Shown: one piece after another, positions 30,717 through 38,052 of the stretch
Numbering within the stretch: the first letter of the stretch is position 1
Layout of the letters: each line of letters starts with the position of its first letter
Assembly (NCBI RefSeq): GCF_026109735.1
Contig: NZ_CP069620.1
Coordinates: 248,001-312,000, forward strand
DNA: 64,000 nucleotides
DNA from: Salinimicrobium tongyeongense
GTDB taxonomy: Bacteria; Bacteroidota; Bacteroidia; Flavobacteriales; Flavobacteriaceae
Direction: 5' to 3'
Program-made: the position numbers and the translations under genes
Notes under the pieces: generated by a model
What the model was told of the DNA's origin: nothing
Database searches by the model: none
What the model saw: only the letters and a program-made list of their open reading frames with translations

Positions 30717-33700
30717 TTAAAAACTCACTCCCAAACTAAAACTGAAGCGGAGTTTCTCACCGCCTGAAAAAAGGTTGAGTTTCGCCGAAACAGCCTCGGC
30801 CCCGGTTATCCATAATCCGCCGCCATAGCTGTCATGCCACAGGTTACTGTCTTCGCCGTCAAGCCAGACCCTACCCACGTCATAACCGGCAAATACACCA
30901 ATCTGGAACGGCACGAACGAAGTTTTGAACTCATCAAAACTGTACCGTAGATCATTGCCCCAAACAAAAGCACTTTCTCCAGAGAAACGTTCTTCCCTGA
31001 AACCTCTAAGGCTTTCGGCACCCCCAAGAGTCGCAGCCTGGTAGAACTCGAAATCGTCTTCCCAAAGCACTTCGGCATTCACCCGGGAATTGATCACCCA
31101 CTTGTCATTTCGCGTTACCGCCTTGTAGAACTCGAGATATGGACGAACAAAACCGTAGAGGTTATCGGTTTCGCCGGTATTAATCTTTCCGCCGCCAACA
31201 AATTCAAATTTCATCCCGTTGGTTGGGTTGAGCACATCATCATAGCTTTCATACCTAAAAAGCCCTTCTAAGCCGGCAAAATACTGGCGGTCAAAAAAGT
31301 TGGTTTCCTTCATGTATTCCCCTGAAAGAAAACGCCCACTGGTCTCCTCAATTTGTACGCCTTCAAAAGATGCGGTTAACTGGTAGAAACGACCAAAAGG
31401 GGTGTTTTTGACAATTCCGGCATCCCCGCCTATCCTGCTAATGCGCACCCGGTTAAAATCTTTACCCAGTTCTTCTTCATAATTTTTGGTCTCATTACCC
31501 ATTCCGAAGAAATTTCGGGTGTAACTGGGATTTGTAAAATGGGCTTTCAGAAGAAAGTTATAGTCTCCAAAAATATTGGCGAATTCGCCGCGGTACCTCA
31601 AATCAAAACTTTCAGTAGCAAAATAATACCCGGCCCTAAACCTGTGCTGAGCGGTAAAAGGGTTTCTTCGGAAACCATATTTGGTAAAGGAGGTGCTCAC
31701 GCCCACCTGGAAGCCGTCATCGGGATTATAACCCACTGCCGGAAGTATGGAACTTGAGGTATAGATCTTGCGATCTTTATCAAAAACATTCACCTCGTAG
31801 TTATCTGTGAAAGTAATATCTGCACCGTCGTTGACCTCAACGGTGTTGGGCAGGGATTCATGATCATAAACCTTCACTTTTTTGCCATTTTTGATCCTGT
31901 AGATGTCATTGTTCTGCCCCCCAATGATCCTCACCAGAATTTTAGCGGGAGCTTCCCCAAAGACTTCAAAAATATCGTCATCATCGAGGCCGTACACCCA
32001 TAATTCGCCGGTCACAGCAGGATCGTACTCCCTATTGCTCACCACATCGGCCTTTTCACCATCCTTTATTCTGTAAACGCTCACTCGGGTCTTGCCTTCG
32101 GGAAGACGTTCAATTTCAATATGATCATCTTTATCGGTAGCAGTGATCATGGCAAATTTGGCAAAGTAGTTATAGTACCTTTCAGCAATGTCAACTATAT
32201 TATTTCTTCGAGCCTTCAGATTTCTTATAATTCGCTGAGTTGCTTCTCCCCGGGTTTCTTCCGGAAGTTCTGCAAAGGCCTCTTCAATAACTTCATCTGT
32301 GATTTGCTCCTGCAGGTACCTGGCCTGCCGCAACCATTCTTCTTTTGAAGAATTTTGAATGAGGCTCCTGTCCAGCCCCACGGCAGCCGAGTTAAACCAC
32401 TCGATGTTGCTGATATCCTCATCATAAACCGCAAATTGATTGGCAAATCCGGTTAAGCCTCTTAAGGTGTTAAAGAAAGCGCCATCAAAATTGGAAAATA
32501 CCTGATCTCTGTCTCGGGGAATGGGCTTAAAAAGGTGGTTTCCTGCTTCATCCTCAATTTCGGCCCATCTCCATTGGTCTTCATGCCTGTCCCAATCGCC
32601 CACCAGCATGTCAAAAATCCTTGCCCTTATATAAGCTGCCTCGTCAAGACTGTATTTTTCATCACGGCGAAGTCGCTCAAATACACCTGATGTACTTTCA
32701 ATATCATGGTTTGGACTGCCAAAAGATTCATATCCAACCCAGCCTTCTTCGGGCCGCTCCACGATCATGTAAAGTTCATCTCCATATTCACTGTTGAAAT
32801 CTCCCAAAGCTTTTTGCTTCGGAACATAAAATACCTGCGGATTTGTATGGAAAATCCCGGCAGCTTCAGACAGTTTCGGAATTGCCAGAAAGGCATAAGG
32901 ATGTGCCGAAGTATAAAAATCCCTAATAACATCTTCGGCAAGGGTATTCTCAAATTTGGTTTCTACAGGCGTGTCTTTGTAGGCCACGGTTTGAATGAAC
33001 TGCACGGCACTCTTCTCGAGCGCCCTAAGGTTATAATCCCTCCCCTGCGAATCTTTTAACCGGAGAGAGCGAGTTTGGTGCCCTCCCCCGGCCCGCTCTA
33101 CGGTGAGCCCACCGTACAAAGTATCGAGAATGGCCACGGGAACTTCTACCGGTGTTCCATACAGATCTCTGTACCTGTCTCCCCAAATGCTTTCGTAGGT
33201 GGTAGACACCAAGGTATCGGCAGGCTCATAGACTGAGGCGCGTACCCTTTGCGGGAAAGACGTTGAAAGGGTATCGGTATTAAATGGCTGTGGCGCAGCA
33301 ATGACTTCTTTTTGATACAGCAATTTTGGTTTTTTATTTTCACTGCCGTACATACTTACCCAGGAAGAGCCATCTTTAAAAATGTCAAGCGTGGCAAACC
33401 CCTGGCCCGAATAAGCAAATAAGCCGTCGCTCCCCAGCCCCACATAAGAAGCCTTGGATGCCGACCCGGAGACTATCTGCTTAATCTCATCGTGTTCAAT
33501 GTACTGTACCGAATGATCGTGCCCCGAAACAAATACGACATTCCCCCAGCGGGAAGCAATAGTTTCTATGCGTTTTCTCATTCCCTTATAGCGTTCATTC
33601 TGAAGATCGGTACTGGTTACACCTCCTGTTGTTCTAATGAAGTTGGCCAAAGTACCAAGAATAGGCAGCGGTAGTTTGCGCTGGGTAGGATAAAGGTGGT

Positions 33701-34439
33701 CTGTAAGGCTGAAGTTTCCGCCGTGCAATCCGTTGGTATATAATGGATGGTGAATTGCAAAGACCACAGTCTTGGTCTGGTTCTTTTTTAACTCGCTGTC
33801 AATTTCCTGGAAAAAGGCTTCTCTGGTCTTTATTTCATCACAGTCGTCGTTAATTTTGGGGTGCTCATCCCAGTCTTCGAGAAACCACTGAGAGTCGGCC
33901 ACCAAAAGCTGAATACTATCTGTGACCTCAATAGAAGTCAATCCGCAACCGGCTTCAGGAAGAAAGACGTCGTCTCTTTCGAGTTTTTCCCGAAGGTAAT
34001 CTGCCTGGCGTTCCAACCCTGTTAATCCCTGGGCATACCAGTCGTGGTTTCCCGGGACGAAGAACAGGTTTCCGTCGTAATTCTCTACTGCATCTATCTG
34101 GGCATCCAGGCGGTATTCCATAAGTTCCCTCTCGGGGTGGTCTTCAGAAACAAGACCTGCAGGGTATACATTATCACCAAGGAAAATAGTGTAATTACCC
34201 ACCTGTTTTACTGAGTCTATATAAGTCTTGAACGCAAGAAGGGCTTCGGAAGAGCCTCCCGGAGGAGAATATCCTCCGTCTCCCAGTAGATAAAATGATT
34301 TTTCAATTTCTTTTTCTGTGGGATAACCAAAATCTTCTGAAGGTTCATCCTTGGCAAAATAAAGCTGATTAAGGTGTGGTGCACAGCCTGTGATTACAAT
34401 AAACAGTGCCAGTGTTAGAAATATGTTATTTTTTCTCAT
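30717..34439 (-). CDS. Lipoprotein fusing metallophosphatase, kinase-like region and outer-membrane barrel
   Basis: A 1240-residue protein. A lipobox ends at Cys19 (IVITGC). The calcineurin/purple-acid-phosphatase-like domain (about 45-350) shows GDGG at 53-56, GDN at 88-90, GNHD at 130-133, HH at 230-231 and GHDH at 306-309. A middle region (about 450-760) contains RSLRLKDSQGRDYNLRALEK at 457-476, VGDWDRHEDQWRW at 613-625 and PRDRDQVF at 641-648, an arrangement reminiscent of Fam20/CotH/HipA-type kinase catalytic and metal loops. From about 890 to the C-terminal Phe it is beta-strand-rich, like the BamA/Omp85 surface-antigen barrel. The phosphatase and barrel calls are firm; kinase activity is inferred. 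It is divergent, by 55 bp, from the HD-PycTM gene. Confidence 0.85.
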   Translation of the reverse strand: MRKNNIFLTLALFIVITGCAPHLNQLYFAKDEPSEDFGYPTEKEIEKSFYLLGDGGYSPPGGSSEALLAFKTYIDSVKQVGNYTIFLGDNVYPAGLVSEDHPERELMEYRLDAQIDAVENYDGNLFFVPGNHDWYAQGLTGLERQADYLREKLERDDVFLPEAGCGLTSIEVTDSIQLLVADSQWFLEDWDEHPKINDDCDEIKTREAFFQEIDSELKKNQTKTVVFAIHHPLYTNGLHGGNFSLTDHLYPTQRKLPLPILGTLANFIRTTGGVTSTDLQNERYKGMRKRIETIASRWGNVVFVSGHDHSVQYIEHDEIKQIVSGSASKASYVGLGSDGLFAYSGQGFATLDIFKDGSSWVSMYGSENKKPKLLYQKEVIAAPQPFNTDTLSTSFPQRVRASVYEPADTLVSTTYESIWGDRYRDLYGTPVEVPVAILDTLYGGLTVERAGGGHQTRSLRLKDSQGRDYNLRALEKSAVQFIQTVAYKDTPVETKFENTLAEDVIRDFYTSAHPYAFLAIPKLSEAAGIFHTNPQVFYVPKQKALGDFNSEYGDELYMIVERPEEGWVGYESFGSPNHDIESTSGVFERLRRDEKYSLDEAAYIRARIFDMLVGDWDRHEDQWRWAEIEDEAGNHLFKPIPRDRDQVFSNFDGAFFNTLRGLTGFANQFAVYDEDISNIEWFNSAAVGLDRSLIQNSSKEEWLRQARYLQEQITDEVIEEAFAELPEETRGEATQRIIRNLKARRNNIVDIAERYYNYFAKFAMITATDKDDHIEIERLPEGKTRVSVYRIKDGEKADVVSNREYDPAVTGELWVYGLDDDDIFEVFGEAPAKILVRIIGGQNNDIYRIKNGKKVKVYDHESLPNTVEVNDGADITFTDNYEVNVFDKDRKIYTSSSILPAVGYNPDDGFQVGVSTSFTKYGFRRNPFTAQHRFRAGYYFATESFDLRYRGEFANIFGDYNFLLKAHFTNPSYTRNFFGMGNETKNYEEELGKDFNRVRISRIGGDAGIVKNTPFGRFYQLTASFEGVQIEETSGRFLSGEYMKETNFFDRQYFAGLEGLFRYESYDDVLNPTNGMKFEFVGGGKINTGETDNLYGFVRPYLEFYKAVTRNDKWVINSRVNAEVLWEDDFEFYQAATLGGAESLRGFREERFSGESAFVWGNDLRYSFDEFKTSFVPFQIGVFAGYDVGRVWLDGEDSNLWHDSYGGGLWITGAEAVSAKLNLFSGGEKLRFSFSLGVSF

Positions 34440-34494: not shown

Positions 34495-35685
34495 ATGACA
34501 ACTCTTACCGGTAAAGCTGAAAATTTCGTACAGGATCTATTCAGTAAAAAACTACCTAATACATTCATTTATCATAACTTTAAACACACTCAGAGGGTAG
34601 TTAAAAGTACTAAAGAATTAATTGAAAAATCTCAAATTGATGTTAAACAGGAGGAGCCCTTACTTCTGGCTGCGTGGTTACATGACACGGGTTATACCCG
34701 TAAATATGCCGGCCACGAAGAAGAAAGTGTAAAAATAGCCGAGACCTGGCTGCAGGAGCAGCATGCCGGCCAGCAGCTTATCGATGCTGTCTCCAGGCTC
34801 ATTCTTGCTACACGCATGCATGCCGAACCTAAAGACCTTTCTGAAAAGATCATCAAGGATGCCGACACCTCTCATTTAGCCAAAGATTATTTTGAAGAGA
34901 CCAGCGAATTTCTTCGCCAGGAACTTAAACTTCAAAAGATAAAGAACTTTACACACCAGGAATGGATTGAAAAGAACATTGAACTTTTTACAGAGCGGCA
35001 CGAATATTATACACCCTACGCCCGGGAAAACTGGAAGGAGCAAAAGGATAAAAACCTGTATAACCTGCTCAATAAAGAAAGAAAAGCAAAAAAGAAATTA
35101 GCCAAAGAAGAAGCCAAGGCGCGCCTGAAAGTAAAATATAAGGATAAAAGTCCCGACAGGGGGATTCAAACCCTCTTTAGGGTTACCATGCGCAATCACC
35201 TAAAGTTAAGTGATATAGCCGATGCTAAGGCAAACATCCTGCTTTCGGTTAATGCCATAATCATTTCACTGGCCATTGCCAACTTCATCCCAGATCTTGG
35301 AACCCCAACAACTGCCAGCCCCGCGGTTATGATACCAATTTTTATATTGATGATCTTTAGCGTGGCATCCATCATTGGGGCCATTATGTCTACACGCCCA
35401 AACGTTACCTCTGGTGAATTTACTCGGGAGCAAATCAAAAACGGTGAAGTAAACGTGCTGTTCTTCGGAAATTTTCACCGCATGCCTTACGAGCAGTTTG
35501 AATGGGCCATGCATGAGATTCTCGAAAATCAAAGTGATGTGTACGAATCTCTCATGAAAGACCTTTACATGCTGGGAGTGGTACTAAACCGGAAGTATTA
35601 TTTATTGAGAATTACCTACACCATTTTTATGGTAGGCATCATTCTTTCGGTCCTCAGTTTTATCGCCACTTACTACTTTGCCTAG
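34495..35685 (+). CDS. HD-domain protein with C-terminal Pycsar-effector-like (PycTM/DUF5706) domain
   Basis: A 396-residue protein. Residues 1-190 form an HD phosphohydrolase domain with His31, the HD pair 63-64 in AAWLHDTGY and Asp122 in IIKDADTS, all metal ligands being present. A basic coiled stretch (about 190-220) leads to a PycTM-type region beginning RVTMRNHLKLSDIADAKANI, with membrane segments at about 248-268, 276-298 and 371-393. In Pycsar defence, PycTM effectors respond to cCMP/cUMP. No cyclase gene lies in this window, so this looks like an orphan, possibly a housekeeping or membrane-signalling member. It overlaps the convergent GAF gene by 84 bp. Confidence 0.82.
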   Translation: MTTLTGKAENFVQDLFSKKLPNTFIYHNFKHTQRVVKSTKELIEKSQIDVKQEEPLLLAAWLHDTGYTRKYAGHEEESVKIAETWLQEQHAGQQLIDAVSRLILATRMHAEPKDLSEKIIKDADTSHLAKDYFEETSEFLRQELKLQKIKNFTHQEWIEKNIELFTERHEYYTPYARENWKEQKDKNLYNLLNKERKAKKKLAKEEAKARLKVKYKDKSPDRGIQTLFRVTMRNHLKLSDIADAKANILLSVNAIIISLAIANFIPDLGTPTTASPAVMIPIFILMIFSVASIIGAIMSTRPNVTSGEFTREQIKNGEVNVLFFGNFHRMPYEQFEWAMHEILENQSDVYESLMKDLYMLGVVLNRKYYLLRITYTIFMVGIILSVLSFIATYYFA

Positions 35686-38052
35686 CACTTTTTCAAGGTC
35701 GTCATAAGTAAAAATCTGTTCTTCGTGTTGTTCATTTTCCAAATGGTACAGCACCTCGACTCTTATGGCTTTAAGCCCAATCACCCCCTGAACATCTTCA
35801 AGTTCCAGTTTCTCTACCTTGTCACCAAGGTATTTTTTTGATTGTAGATATTTAATGTAACGCATATACTCCCTTTCATCCTTCCTGTTGGAATAAACGA
35901 TAGCAATTTTGCCCTTTTGGGTCACCCTCTCCTCAGTTCCTTTTACGTTTGCCTTGTCAATACGTTTTTTGATGATTTCATATCTTGCGTTATAGGTGCC
36001 GTCTACATCAAATTGTTTTTCATCCATCCTGTACCTTATAGACAGGGTGGTGTTGTAAACAAGGATGAGCGAGGCAGCTTCCAGCTTTAGCGGCATTCGT
36101 TCCTGGATCTGGTAAAAACGGTTTTCCATTTCACACATGGTCGTTAACTGCCACAAACGCAGATTAAAAAGATAGACCTGGTCAAAAGGTTTATTTTTTT
36201 TATTGGAGAGTGATGCCCCTATATAAATGTTGTGTTCAACACCATCTGTCTTGTACCTCTCGAAGTAATGCGGGTAGATCTCCTGGGCATCTACCTGTCG
36301 CCGGTCAATATATCGCGACATGGTACGGTTGATTTGCTGAACCGCTTCATCATAATTCTTTCGGTGATTATAAATTATACCTGTTTCAGAATTGATGTTC
36401 TTGCGGTATATTTTTACCTGCTCTTCTAAATGAGCCCCCTGCTTTTCAATATGGGCCATCACGGGGTTGATTTCCCTCTGAAGTAAATTGAATACCTTTT
36501 GTTCACTGGAGGTACTAAGGCTTCCGGCCAAATCGTCTTTAAATTCTTTTATGCGGAACTTTACCTGTTCATAGATATCAAGCTTTTCAATTTCTTCAGC
36601 TTCACATACAATGTTCTCTATGAGTTCAAGTTGATCTAGCAGATCTTTCTGAATAGCTTCATTTCGAGCTTCCGAAGAAGCCACTATATCTATCTCCCCG
36701 TATAAAGGATATACATCCTCAAAAGTGATATCTTTAAAGGAAGCAAGGCCATCCTCGTCCAGGTCTTTTATGAATTTGCGCGCCTCCTTCTCAAAAACCC
36801 ATAACACACTGGGGTGAATAGAGGTACATTCACTTTGTATAACGGCCTTTACCCGGTTCTCGAATTCAGATTTGCTGCGCTCTACTGCTGTTACTATATA
36901 CGGCAGGATATCTTCCAGTTTTGTGGCATTGATGCTGTTGAGCTCATTCTTTTCAAAAGAAACCAGCTCCATGAGCCCAAGCAAAATGTTGTTCTTGGCA
37001 ATAGGTGCAATTATGGCACTTTTGACACCTGCATCGACAAAAGATTTTATAAGCACATTTTCTGAAGCCTTATCGGCATACCTGCTAATATTGGGAATGC
37101 TGTAGTAATGCTGCTCTTCCACCAGGCTCCTGTACGCCTCCTCCCCAAGCACCTTCTTGCAGTTGAGTATTTTTTTCTTCTGAAGCAAAAAACTGGGGGA
37201 ACGATTTCCTATCATTCGCTCAAAAGTGGAGTCCTGCTCATTGTACATGGTAAATCCTACCCTAAGGTTAGGGATTTTGTAAATAGATTTAAAGATCTCT
37301 TCAAACTTTTCCATCTCTTCCTTGCCCGAAGTATTCCGCTGCAATAAGGTGGTTTTGAGATCTGAAATTGCATCGTCTACGGTAACATCGGTAAGGGTAA
37401 TGATTGTAAATCCTTTAAAAATCCAGCTGTTGAGTGGGAATTTTTCTTTCCAGAGCTTTACATTTTCAATATTCTGGATCAATTCATCAACATCTTCTTT
37501 GTTGATTTCCTTTGCATTTTTTCCCGGCTCCAGCTCCATAAAATGCGAATCCAGCTCAATTCTATAGTGCCTTAAAATGCCATTTTTGTCGGGTATATCG
37601 TAATAAAATGGCCTGGAAAAATCAATATCGTACCCATAATACCAGTTTAAAATCAGGATACAGGCATAGATGTAGTCAAGGTCTTCATTGAGGTTCCTCA
37701 TATTAAGCCTGAAGTCTTCTCCTGCCCCTGCCAGTATTTTCCGAAACTTCTGCGTAGAATTGAAAACCAGGTTATGAAAAGGTACCGAAATGGCCTTGAT
37801 CTGGGTTTCAGACAGGATTTCAGGAAAAAGGTCTTTTAATAAAATGCGGATAGGATCTTTGTAGCGATTGAGATCTTCAGAATTTACAATACCTTCTTCC
37901 AGTGCCGGAAAAGTCGATATATATTCGAGCATATTCTCCAGGTAATTTTTGGAAATGCTACTCGACTCATTTTTTAGCTGGTGGCGGTATTCTTCTATGA
38001 TCTTATGGAAACTGATCTTTATTTCCAGTGGAAACTCCTTCTGATTCTTCAT
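35602..38052 (-). CDS. Large GAF-domain protein
   Basis: An 816-residue soluble protein without signal peptide. A GAF-like module lies at roughly 290-400 (AGVKSAIIAPIAKNNILLGLMELVSF is its conserved core), after a helical N-terminal half. Long helical, acidic stretches follow (about 430-620) and a distinct C-terminal region ends in a basic tail. Proteins of this size with one GAF domain are typical of Flavobacteriia and uncharacterised. GAF domains often bind cyclic nucleotides or other small ligands. The last 27 codons overlap the HD-PycTM gene on the opposite strand, so the two transcripts collide. Confidence 0.8.
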   Translation of the reverse strand: MKNQKEFPLEIKISFHKIIEEYRHQLKNESSSISKNYLENMLEYISTFPALEEGIVNSEDLNRYKDPIRILLKDLFPEILSETQIKAISVPFHNLVFNSTQKFRKILAGAGEDFRLNMRNLNEDLDYIYACILILNWYYGYDIDFSRPFYYDIPDKNGILRHYRIELDSHFMELEPGKNAKEINKEDVDELIQNIENVKLWKEKFPLNSWIFKGFTIITLTDVTVDDAISDLKTTLLQRNTSGKEEMEKFEEIFKSIYKIPNLRVGFTMYNEQDSTFERMIGNRSPSFLLQKKKILNCKKVLGEEAYRSLVEEQHYYSIPNISRYADKASENVLIKSFVDAGVKSAIIAPIAKNNILLGLMELVSFEKNELNSINATKLEDILPYIVTAVERSKSEFENRVKAVIQSECTSIHPSVLWVFEKEARKFIKDLDEDGLASFKDITFEDVYPLYGEIDIVASSEARNEAIQKDLLDQLELIENIVCEAEEIEKLDIYEQVKFRIKEFKDDLAGSLSTSSEQKVFNLLQREINPVMAHIEKQGAHLEEQVKIYRKNINSETGIIYNHRKNYDEAVQQINRTMSRYIDRRQVDAQEIYPHYFERYKTDGVEHNIYIGASLSNKKNKPFDQVYLFNLRLWQLTTMCEMENRFYQIQERMPLKLEAASLILVYNTTLSIRYRMDEKQFDVDGTYNARYEIIKKRIDKANVKGTEERVTQKGKIAIVYSNRKDEREYMRYIKYLQSKKYLGDKVEKLELEDVQGVIGLKAIRVEVLYHLENEQHEEQIFTYDDLEKVLGKVVSGDKTEDRKNDAYHKNGVGNSQ

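Follow-up and report, generated by a model that had tools for sequence, protein, structure and literature searches.

A single gene in the 64,000-nucleotide stretch of Salinimicrobium tongyeongense DNA that we analysed (contig NZ_CP069620.1, positions 248,001 to 312,000; hereafter the window) encodes a predicted outer-membrane lipoprotein in which a phosphoesterase, a kinase-like domain and a barrel are joined. The gene (30717..34439, minus strand) is a single open frame with an ATG start, and its 1240-amino-acid (aa) product comprises a lipobox, a metallophosphoesterase, the kinase-like domain, a beta-rich linker and an Omp85-type barrel. On balance, we think it probable that the protein is a twice-anchored outer-membrane enzyme whose phosphoesterase and kinase-like domains would act in opposition on an envelope target. 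Pfam matched Metallophos (PF00149, 33.7 bits, cut-off 21.5), ShlB (PF03865, 35.6 bits, cut-off 22.7) and Omp85 (PF01103, 29.4 bits, cut-off 24), and no Pfam family was found between the phosphoesterase and the barrel; the sole NCBIfam match was Omp85, below threshold (63.8 bits, cut-off 200). The function proposed here is for the stretch that both collections leave blank between two annotated domains. An initial annotation of this DNA had pointed to metallophosphatase motifs (GDN 88-90, GNHD 130-133, GHDH 306-309), to VGDWDRHEDQWRW at 613-625 with PRDRDQVF at 641-648, to RSLRLKDSQGRDYNLR at 457-472 and to a strand-rich C-terminus ending in Phe. Each of these is present in the open reading frame, and the C-terminus is predicted to form a 16-strand Omp85 barrel with Phe as its last residue. 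The catalytic-loop Asp residues do lie in GDWDRH, but their numbering as D614 and D616 was wrong and should read D615 and D617.

The middle domain (aa 412-770, 32130..33206; all features of the protein are on the minus strand) was assigned as protein-kinase-like from its predicted fold and a profile match. An AlphaFold2 model of aa 405-878 was built from 84 aligned sequences (alignment A1, 83 of the 88 available relatives plus the window protein) and had a predicted local distance difference test score (pLDDT) of 86.3 and a predicted template modelling score (pTM) of 0.87. In order along the chain, three strands with a Gly-rich loop are followed by a helix and by further strands and helices. 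The chain then runs through a helix into GDWDRHEDQW, two strands and PRDRDQVF, with low confidence beyond that loop. The glycine-rich loop GGGHQ (aa 451-455, 33075..33089) lies between predicted strands 1 and 2, and predicted strand 3, DYNLRALEK (aa 468-476, 33012..33038), carries R472 and K476, the putative nucleotide-binding Lys. The catalytic-loop motif GDWDRHEDQW (aa 614-623, 32571..32600) has D617 as putative catalytic base and Q622 at the usual Asn position, and the DFG-like metal loop PRDRDQVF (aa 641-648, 32496..32519) contains D643 and D645. When the model was compared with the PDB using Foldseek, CtkA of H. pylori ranked first (E 3.8e-5) and HipA next (2.2e-4); lower down came PI4KIIalpha (1e-3) and a Fam20-type Golgi casein kinase (3e-3). 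Eight matches had E <=0.001, and the best 50 of 771 matches were kinase-like folds throughout, as judged by their titles. The initial annotation had staked its reading on a kinase-like N- and C-lobe within residues 430-780, and both the strand and helix order of the model and its PDB matches bear this out: the two-lobe fold of the protein-kinase-like superfamily is seen in the predicted model.

The residues that mark this superfamily are also conserved. In a 157-row alignment, from which just two rows were left out (the self row and a partial one belonging to the paralogue in the same genome), the Lys (K476), the catalytic Asp (D617) and the metal-loop Asp (D643) are kept in 150, 149 and 142 rows, respectively. 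Likewise kept are D610 (156), D615 (152), R618 (153), H619 (139), Q622 (140) and D645 (147). Since the motifs are retained across so many rows, they are not due to chance.

Sequence profiles point in the same direction. A diverse 37-row profile (alignment A3, 36 of 39 computed references from a hand-chosen list plus the window protein) matched CtkA first among PDB sequences, weakly (E 0.051), with DwDRHedqWrW over the DRH of CtkA and with the catalytic loop and C-terminal helices aligned. As A3 omits L113 and L128 (both degenerate) and L151, invariance within it is partly by selection. One relative matched C. elegans Fam20 in the PDB (E 0.024), placing RVFDMLIGDWDRH over HILDYLIGNQDRH. The same relative matched the Pfam Fam20C model (PF06702) at E 5.8e-4 and 20 bits, under the cut-off of 26.8, and was that model's only match in 148 genomes of the phylum. 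Comparison by hhalign with 24 CotH sequences gave a score of 35.1, in which IPRDRDQVF fell on wD.d.afg of CotH and the catalytic and DFG-like loops were in register. Controls scored lower: 60 column shuffles reached at most 18.0, the reversed alignment 14.4, the phosphoesterase profile 22.4, the barrel profile 12.9 and 24 neighbouring-gene-family profiles at most 20.9. Against the HipA profile the score was 17.4, which did not stand out from shuffles (7 of 60 were equal or higher). Taken singly, the signals are weak; they concur in fold, order and register.

Several results weigh against kinship with kinases. The TM-scores of the fold search are modest (among the listed CtkA and PI4K rows, no higher than 0.52 when scaled to target length and 0.35 when scaled to query length), and the window protein's middle domain gave no significant kinase match in any sequence search. 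The window protein matched only Rap-1b (0.38) among PDB sequences, a profile of its close relatives matched none up to E 5, and the window's middle segment gave DUF4222 at 0.043 in Pfam, with no kinase family among the best 25 of 48 families. The window protein had no match to CotH (PF08757, for which 2 of 37 relatives gave weak matches, E 0.01 at best), to Fam20C (PF06702) or to HipA_C (PF07804, cut-off 30.5; one relative scored 11.9 bits). The PI3/PI4 kinase family was found in 0 of 99 genomes of the phylum. When the Fam20-matching relative was searched against the PDB, Fam20 came after an unrelated transporter chain (0.0023). In a Pfam scan of 84 members, the unrelated PAN2_N model reached 2.5e-4 in two members and EnY2 was matched by 21 (0.0078 at best); because unrelated models reach such values, the Fam20C match of 5.8e-4 is not significant alone. 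The hhalign probability for CotH is 26%. These results, the lack of a significant Pfam or PDB sequence match and the weakness of the profile matches, would be expected if the middle domain were unrelated to kinases and GDWDRH and PRDRDQ were structural or metal-binding motifs of some other fold ornamenting an Omp85 'Metallo' protein. We regard this as very improbable, given that CtkA is ranked first by both the fold search and the sequence profile, that the motifs follow the order and register of Fam20 and CotH, and that CotH outscores 24 of 24 unrelated profiles.

With a kinase-like fold preferred for the middle domain, the pattern of motif loss bears on whether the two enzyme domains have separate roles. 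We grouped 167 rows according to seven positions in the phosphoesterase and four in the kinase (K476, D617, Q/N622, D643). The phosphoesterase is intact in 119 rows, 112 of which have all four kinase residues and 7 of which have His622 and Asn643. It is absent or altered in the remaining 48 rows (among them L059, cut by a contig end, and L088, which differs at one position), and 36 of these 48 retain K476, D617, Q/N622 and D643. On a FastTree tree thinned to 95 of the 167 rows, with L059 and L088 included, the phosphoesterase state changes at least 11 times and the kinase state at least 8 times, counted irrespective of direction.

The clearest examples are seven Aequorivita loci with two adjacent full-length copies each, in which losses are reciprocal in all seven. 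Copy 1 lacks most phosphoesterase ligands (GNSFYP for GDNxYP, GNRDW for GNHDW, YHP for HHP), and its kinase motifs GGGHQ, DRHNDQW and PRDRDQ are present. Copy 2, with its phosphoesterase motifs intact, has lost the GGG loop and the Gln, together with His from DRH and the leading Asp from PRDRD. In three pairs that were measured, copy 1 resembles the window protein more in its kinase part (56-60% identity) than in its phosphoesterase part (39-41%), and copy 2 shows the opposite, with 51-54% for the phosphoesterase and 40-42% for the kinase part. Because of their common ancestry, the seven pairs most likely go back to a single event. A ruined phosphoesterase accompanied by intact kinase motifs also occurs in L002, a more distant second copy from the window's own genome, together with L197 and L198, and, as a separate case, in L194 with L196. 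That kinase-motif and phosphoesterase losses are separable supports two separable activities on one outer-membrane polypeptide. The Aequorivita pairs amount to a natural separation-of-function experiment, through which the idea of an outer-membrane cycle of kinase and phosphatase becomes directly testable.

Based on these observations, we propose that the first domain is a metal-dependent phosphoesterase and that the second may represent a new family of the protein-kinase-like superfamily, near its HipA/CtkA-Fam20-CotH-PI4K side, marked by K476, by D617 as putative catalytic residue, by Q622 where Asn is usual and by D643 as putative metal ligand. The protein would have two anchors, a lipid at its N-terminus and its own Omp85-type barrel, with both enzyme domains placed at the inner face of the outer membrane. 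There, the kinase-like domain would transfer phosphate, or another nucleotide-derived group, from adenosine triphosphate (ATP) or a different donor to an envelope component, and the phosphoesterase would strip phosphate from the same or a related target. One polypeptide may in this way both add and remove phosphate, as the initial annotation had suggested. Omp85 topology usually places N-terminal domains in the periplasm, and surface export of lipoproteins follows a rule of acidic residues just after the lipobox Cys. The usual topology, and the finding that none of the 132 Cys-bearing rows has two or more acidic residues within four positions after that Cys, argue for domains that face the periplasm.

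The second suggestion of the initial annotation, that the middle domain is a pseudokinase acting as a sensor, has some observations on its side. Gln in place of Asn after the catalytic Asp is unusual, the kinase is degenerate too in 12 of the 48 rows without an intact phosphoesterase, and a clade of kinase-like proteins encoded by split genes (L216-L218, described below) lacks the catalytic Asp. A pseudokinase scaffold or nucleotide sensor that regulates the phosphoesterase or the barrel would account for these, and to our knowledge the periplasm is generally held to lack ATP, which speaks against a working kinase there. The window copy nevertheless retains all the expected kinase residues, and the four scored kinase residues persist in the 36 rows mentioned above, in which the phosphoesterase is absent or altered. 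Moreover, Aequorivita copy 2 shows joint changes in the glycine loop, the DRH His, the Gln and the leading PRDRD Asp, as for a disused pocket; since K476 and D617 stay in that copy, its kinase may be changed without being dead. Conservation and this joint loss in one duplicate favour a working pocket in the window copy, for which we consider a pseudokinase unlikely. A related alternative is that a working domain transfers a group other than phosphate, such as adenosine monophosphate (AMP), or phosphorylates a lipid or glycan instead of a protein. Some members of the protein-kinase-like superfamily AMPylate their targets, the best structural matches include the lipid kinase PI4KIIalpha besides protein kinases, and the predicted outer-membrane position would suit such a reaction. 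As no observation singles it out, we hold this to be possible but doubtful.

The proposed phosphotransferase can be compared with several known systems. CtkA is the top match by both predicted fold and profile, and its catalytic loop likewise contains DRH. The window protein differs from CtkA and HipA in having Gln for Asn, predicted outer-membrane export, and a barrel and phosphoesterase, and it falls below the PF07804 cut-off. With Fam20C, which acts in the secretory path, and with CotH it has in common the GxxDRH-type catalytic loop of Fam20 and the subsequent metal-loop Asp of CotH; it differs in lying under both Pfam cut-offs, in its bacterial outer-membrane anchor and in its own phosphoesterase. 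PlpD-type patatin-Omp85 proteins also carry an enzyme N-terminal to an Omp85 barrel (PMC4104836). Compared with PlpD, the window protein has a phosphoesterase and a kinase-like domain for the patatin, no POTRA and an N-terminal lipobox.

The combination of PF00149 with Omp85 was described by Heinz and Lithgow in 2014 as the 'Metallo' subfamily, in a treatment in which PF00149 is termed a metalloprotease domain and both a periplasmic and a translocated position are considered (PMC4104836). The word 'kinase' is absent from the main text of that paper. The window protein has PF00149 and an Omp85 barrel in common with 'Metallo' as outlined there. In open-licence literature on Omp85 with kinase-like, metallophosphatase or phosphoesterase terms, no fusion with a kinase-like domain was described. 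Within the passage of a Legionella kinome survey in which Pfam kinase-clan families are enumerated, no such family appears, and the KINtaro paper, which does not use the words Omp85, CotH or HipA, has no bearing either way. A metallophosphoesterase of R. anatipestifer (Niu 2021) was considered as well and is probably a different protein, as a review passage places it among type IX effectors.

The remaining parts of the window protein are in keeping with the proposed architecture. The signal peptide and lipobox (aa 1-19, 34383..34439; ...FIVITGC19) were assigned by eye; ITGC19 provides the Cys after a signal peptide that is typical of outer-membrane lipoproteins, lipidation is predicted, and the Cys is kept in 132 of 167 rows. 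The metallophosphoesterase domain (aa 45-390, 33270..34307; GDGG, GDN, GNHD, HHP and GHDH) both exceeds the PF00149 cut-off and has complete metal-ligand motifs, as expected of calcineurin-like phosphoesterases. Among full-length rows, 113 of 124 have D,D,N,N,H,H,H,H at the eight positions checked, and a phmmer search of this part against the PDB gave no match at 0.01. The beta-rich linker (aa 771-880, 31800..32129) stands at the expected place of a POTRA domain and has conserved D822, G840 and G841. Judged by modelled secondary structure, aa 762-878 are beta-rich with helices of at most 3 residues, which argues against a POTRA domain like those before the barrels of BamA, TamA and PlpD. The Omp85-type barrel (aa 893-1240, 30720..31763; PF01103/PF03865) has 16 predicted strands of at least 10 residues, counted by hand in the predicted model, and an LRGF motif near 1145. 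A full model of aa 41-1240 was made from 66 sequences (alignment A2, 65 of 86 relatives plus the window protein; pLDDT 85.5, pTM 0.82), in which the middle-domain elements are nearly unchanged. Its best PDB matches were the barrels of the SAM complex (Sam50), BamA and TamA, which together with the Pfam score and the strand count identify an Omp85 member; GAP50 was also listed, presumably via the phosphoesterase part.

The middle domain is present in at least 90 of 247 sampled Bacteroidota genomes, a count taken from 105 hand-picked places with the weak or barrel-only G208 and G240 left out. A search at E 0.001 matched 131 of the 247 genomes, barrel-only and phosphoesterase-only matches included. 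The closest relative found is 92% identical and comes from S. profundisediminis. Family members occur as phosphoesterase, middle domain and barrel (mostly ~1240 aa), as middle domain and barrel (mostly ~860-930 aa), as the middle domain alone (L131, L132) and as the phosphoesterase alone (L133-L136). The two proteins with the middle domain and neither barrel nor phosphoesterase (L131:3364-4650, L132:3331-4836) carry a membrane or signal segment at the N-terminus, as judged by eye. Should the kinase-like domain be active, many Bacteroidota would carry out phosphorylation at the outer membrane, a place generally held to lack ATP.

In some genomes, similar parts are encoded side by side. L135 has, adjacent and on the same strand, a phosphoesterase lipoprotein gene (PF00149), a gene for a 563-aa lipoprotein and an Omp85 barrel gene (PF01103), with lipoboxes assigned by eye. 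A kinase-like set of GANSGFFIEDENGNRYLIKFDG, WLNDTDRRDANTM and VQDFG was read by eye in the 563-aa protein; the protein's match to HipA_C is sub-threshold (E 0.25), and two of its relatives (L133, L215) have no Pfam match. It was matched in 6 of 247 genomes, one of them weakly (G132). We examined eight copies of this split kinase-like family (~560-660 aa; L133 twice, L135 and L214-L218), of which the L216-L218 clade is without the catalytic Asp. By search, a barrel gene adjoins six of the eight (L133 twice, L135, L214, L215 and L216), and a phosphoesterase gene accompanies both in L135 and in one of the two L133 sets. The fused and split kinase profiles aligned with a score of 26.3 over 42 columns near the C-terminus at 2% probability, compared with at most 22.7 for 40 shuffles, at most 20.9 for 24 unrelated profiles and 22.4, little lower, for the phosphoesterase profile; we make no claim that the two families are sisters. 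The split family scored 28.6 against the HipA profile with all eight rows (0 of 40 shuffles as high) and 22.4 with only the five rows that retain the catalytic Asp (1 of 40), and it gave no signal against the CotH profile (14 of 40 and 16 of 40 shuffles as high).

A divergent neighbour of the window gene, separate from the protein discussed here, encodes an HD domain with a PycTM (Pycsar-effector-like) part (34495..35685, plus strand). An HD-PycTM relative is found in the neighbourhood of 71 of 81 near loci, window included, or 67 by the PycTM part. Across the 247 genomes, and without correction for kinship, PycTM occurs in 79 of 90 genomes with the middle domain and in 15 of 157 without it, and the two genes are at most 5 kb apart in 58 of the 79 genomes with both. 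We take the association to be a real linkage. We tentatively suggest, at clearly less than an even chance, that the family forms a widespread Bacteroidota module for envelope signalling or remodelling, in which a barrel-tethered, opposed kinase and phosphatase, sometimes split or shared by tandem duplicates, are functionally tied to the inner-membrane HD-PycTM protein. As a guess, the linkage may also point to a role of PycTM outside defence.

Other genes recur nearby. An 816-aa protein is encoded at 35602-38052 on the minus strand, overlapping the end of the HD-PycTM gene; it has no Pfam match at 0.01, and a relative is found in the neighbourhood of 57 of the 81 near loci. In L119, L120 and L125, family genes without the phosphoesterase adjoin genes for polyphosphate kinase and a SixA-like phosphatase (assigned by Pfam in L120 only and by clustering in L119 and L125), and HD or PycTM pieces lie near the family genes of L119 and L120. 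A polyphosphate kinase gene is 65-131 bases from the family gene in G070, G140 and G224 and ~10 kb away in at least 14 further genomes, taken from hand-picked rows. We considered polyphosphate as the donor and judged the idea too thin on gene-proximity evidence. Neighbouring putative lipoproteins at L106:9676-10587 and L117:5453-6313 are SdiA-regulated by Pfam. Another, at L046:9690-10502, has no Pfam match and belongs to a cluster that is shared with L106 and found in 38 of the 81 near loci.

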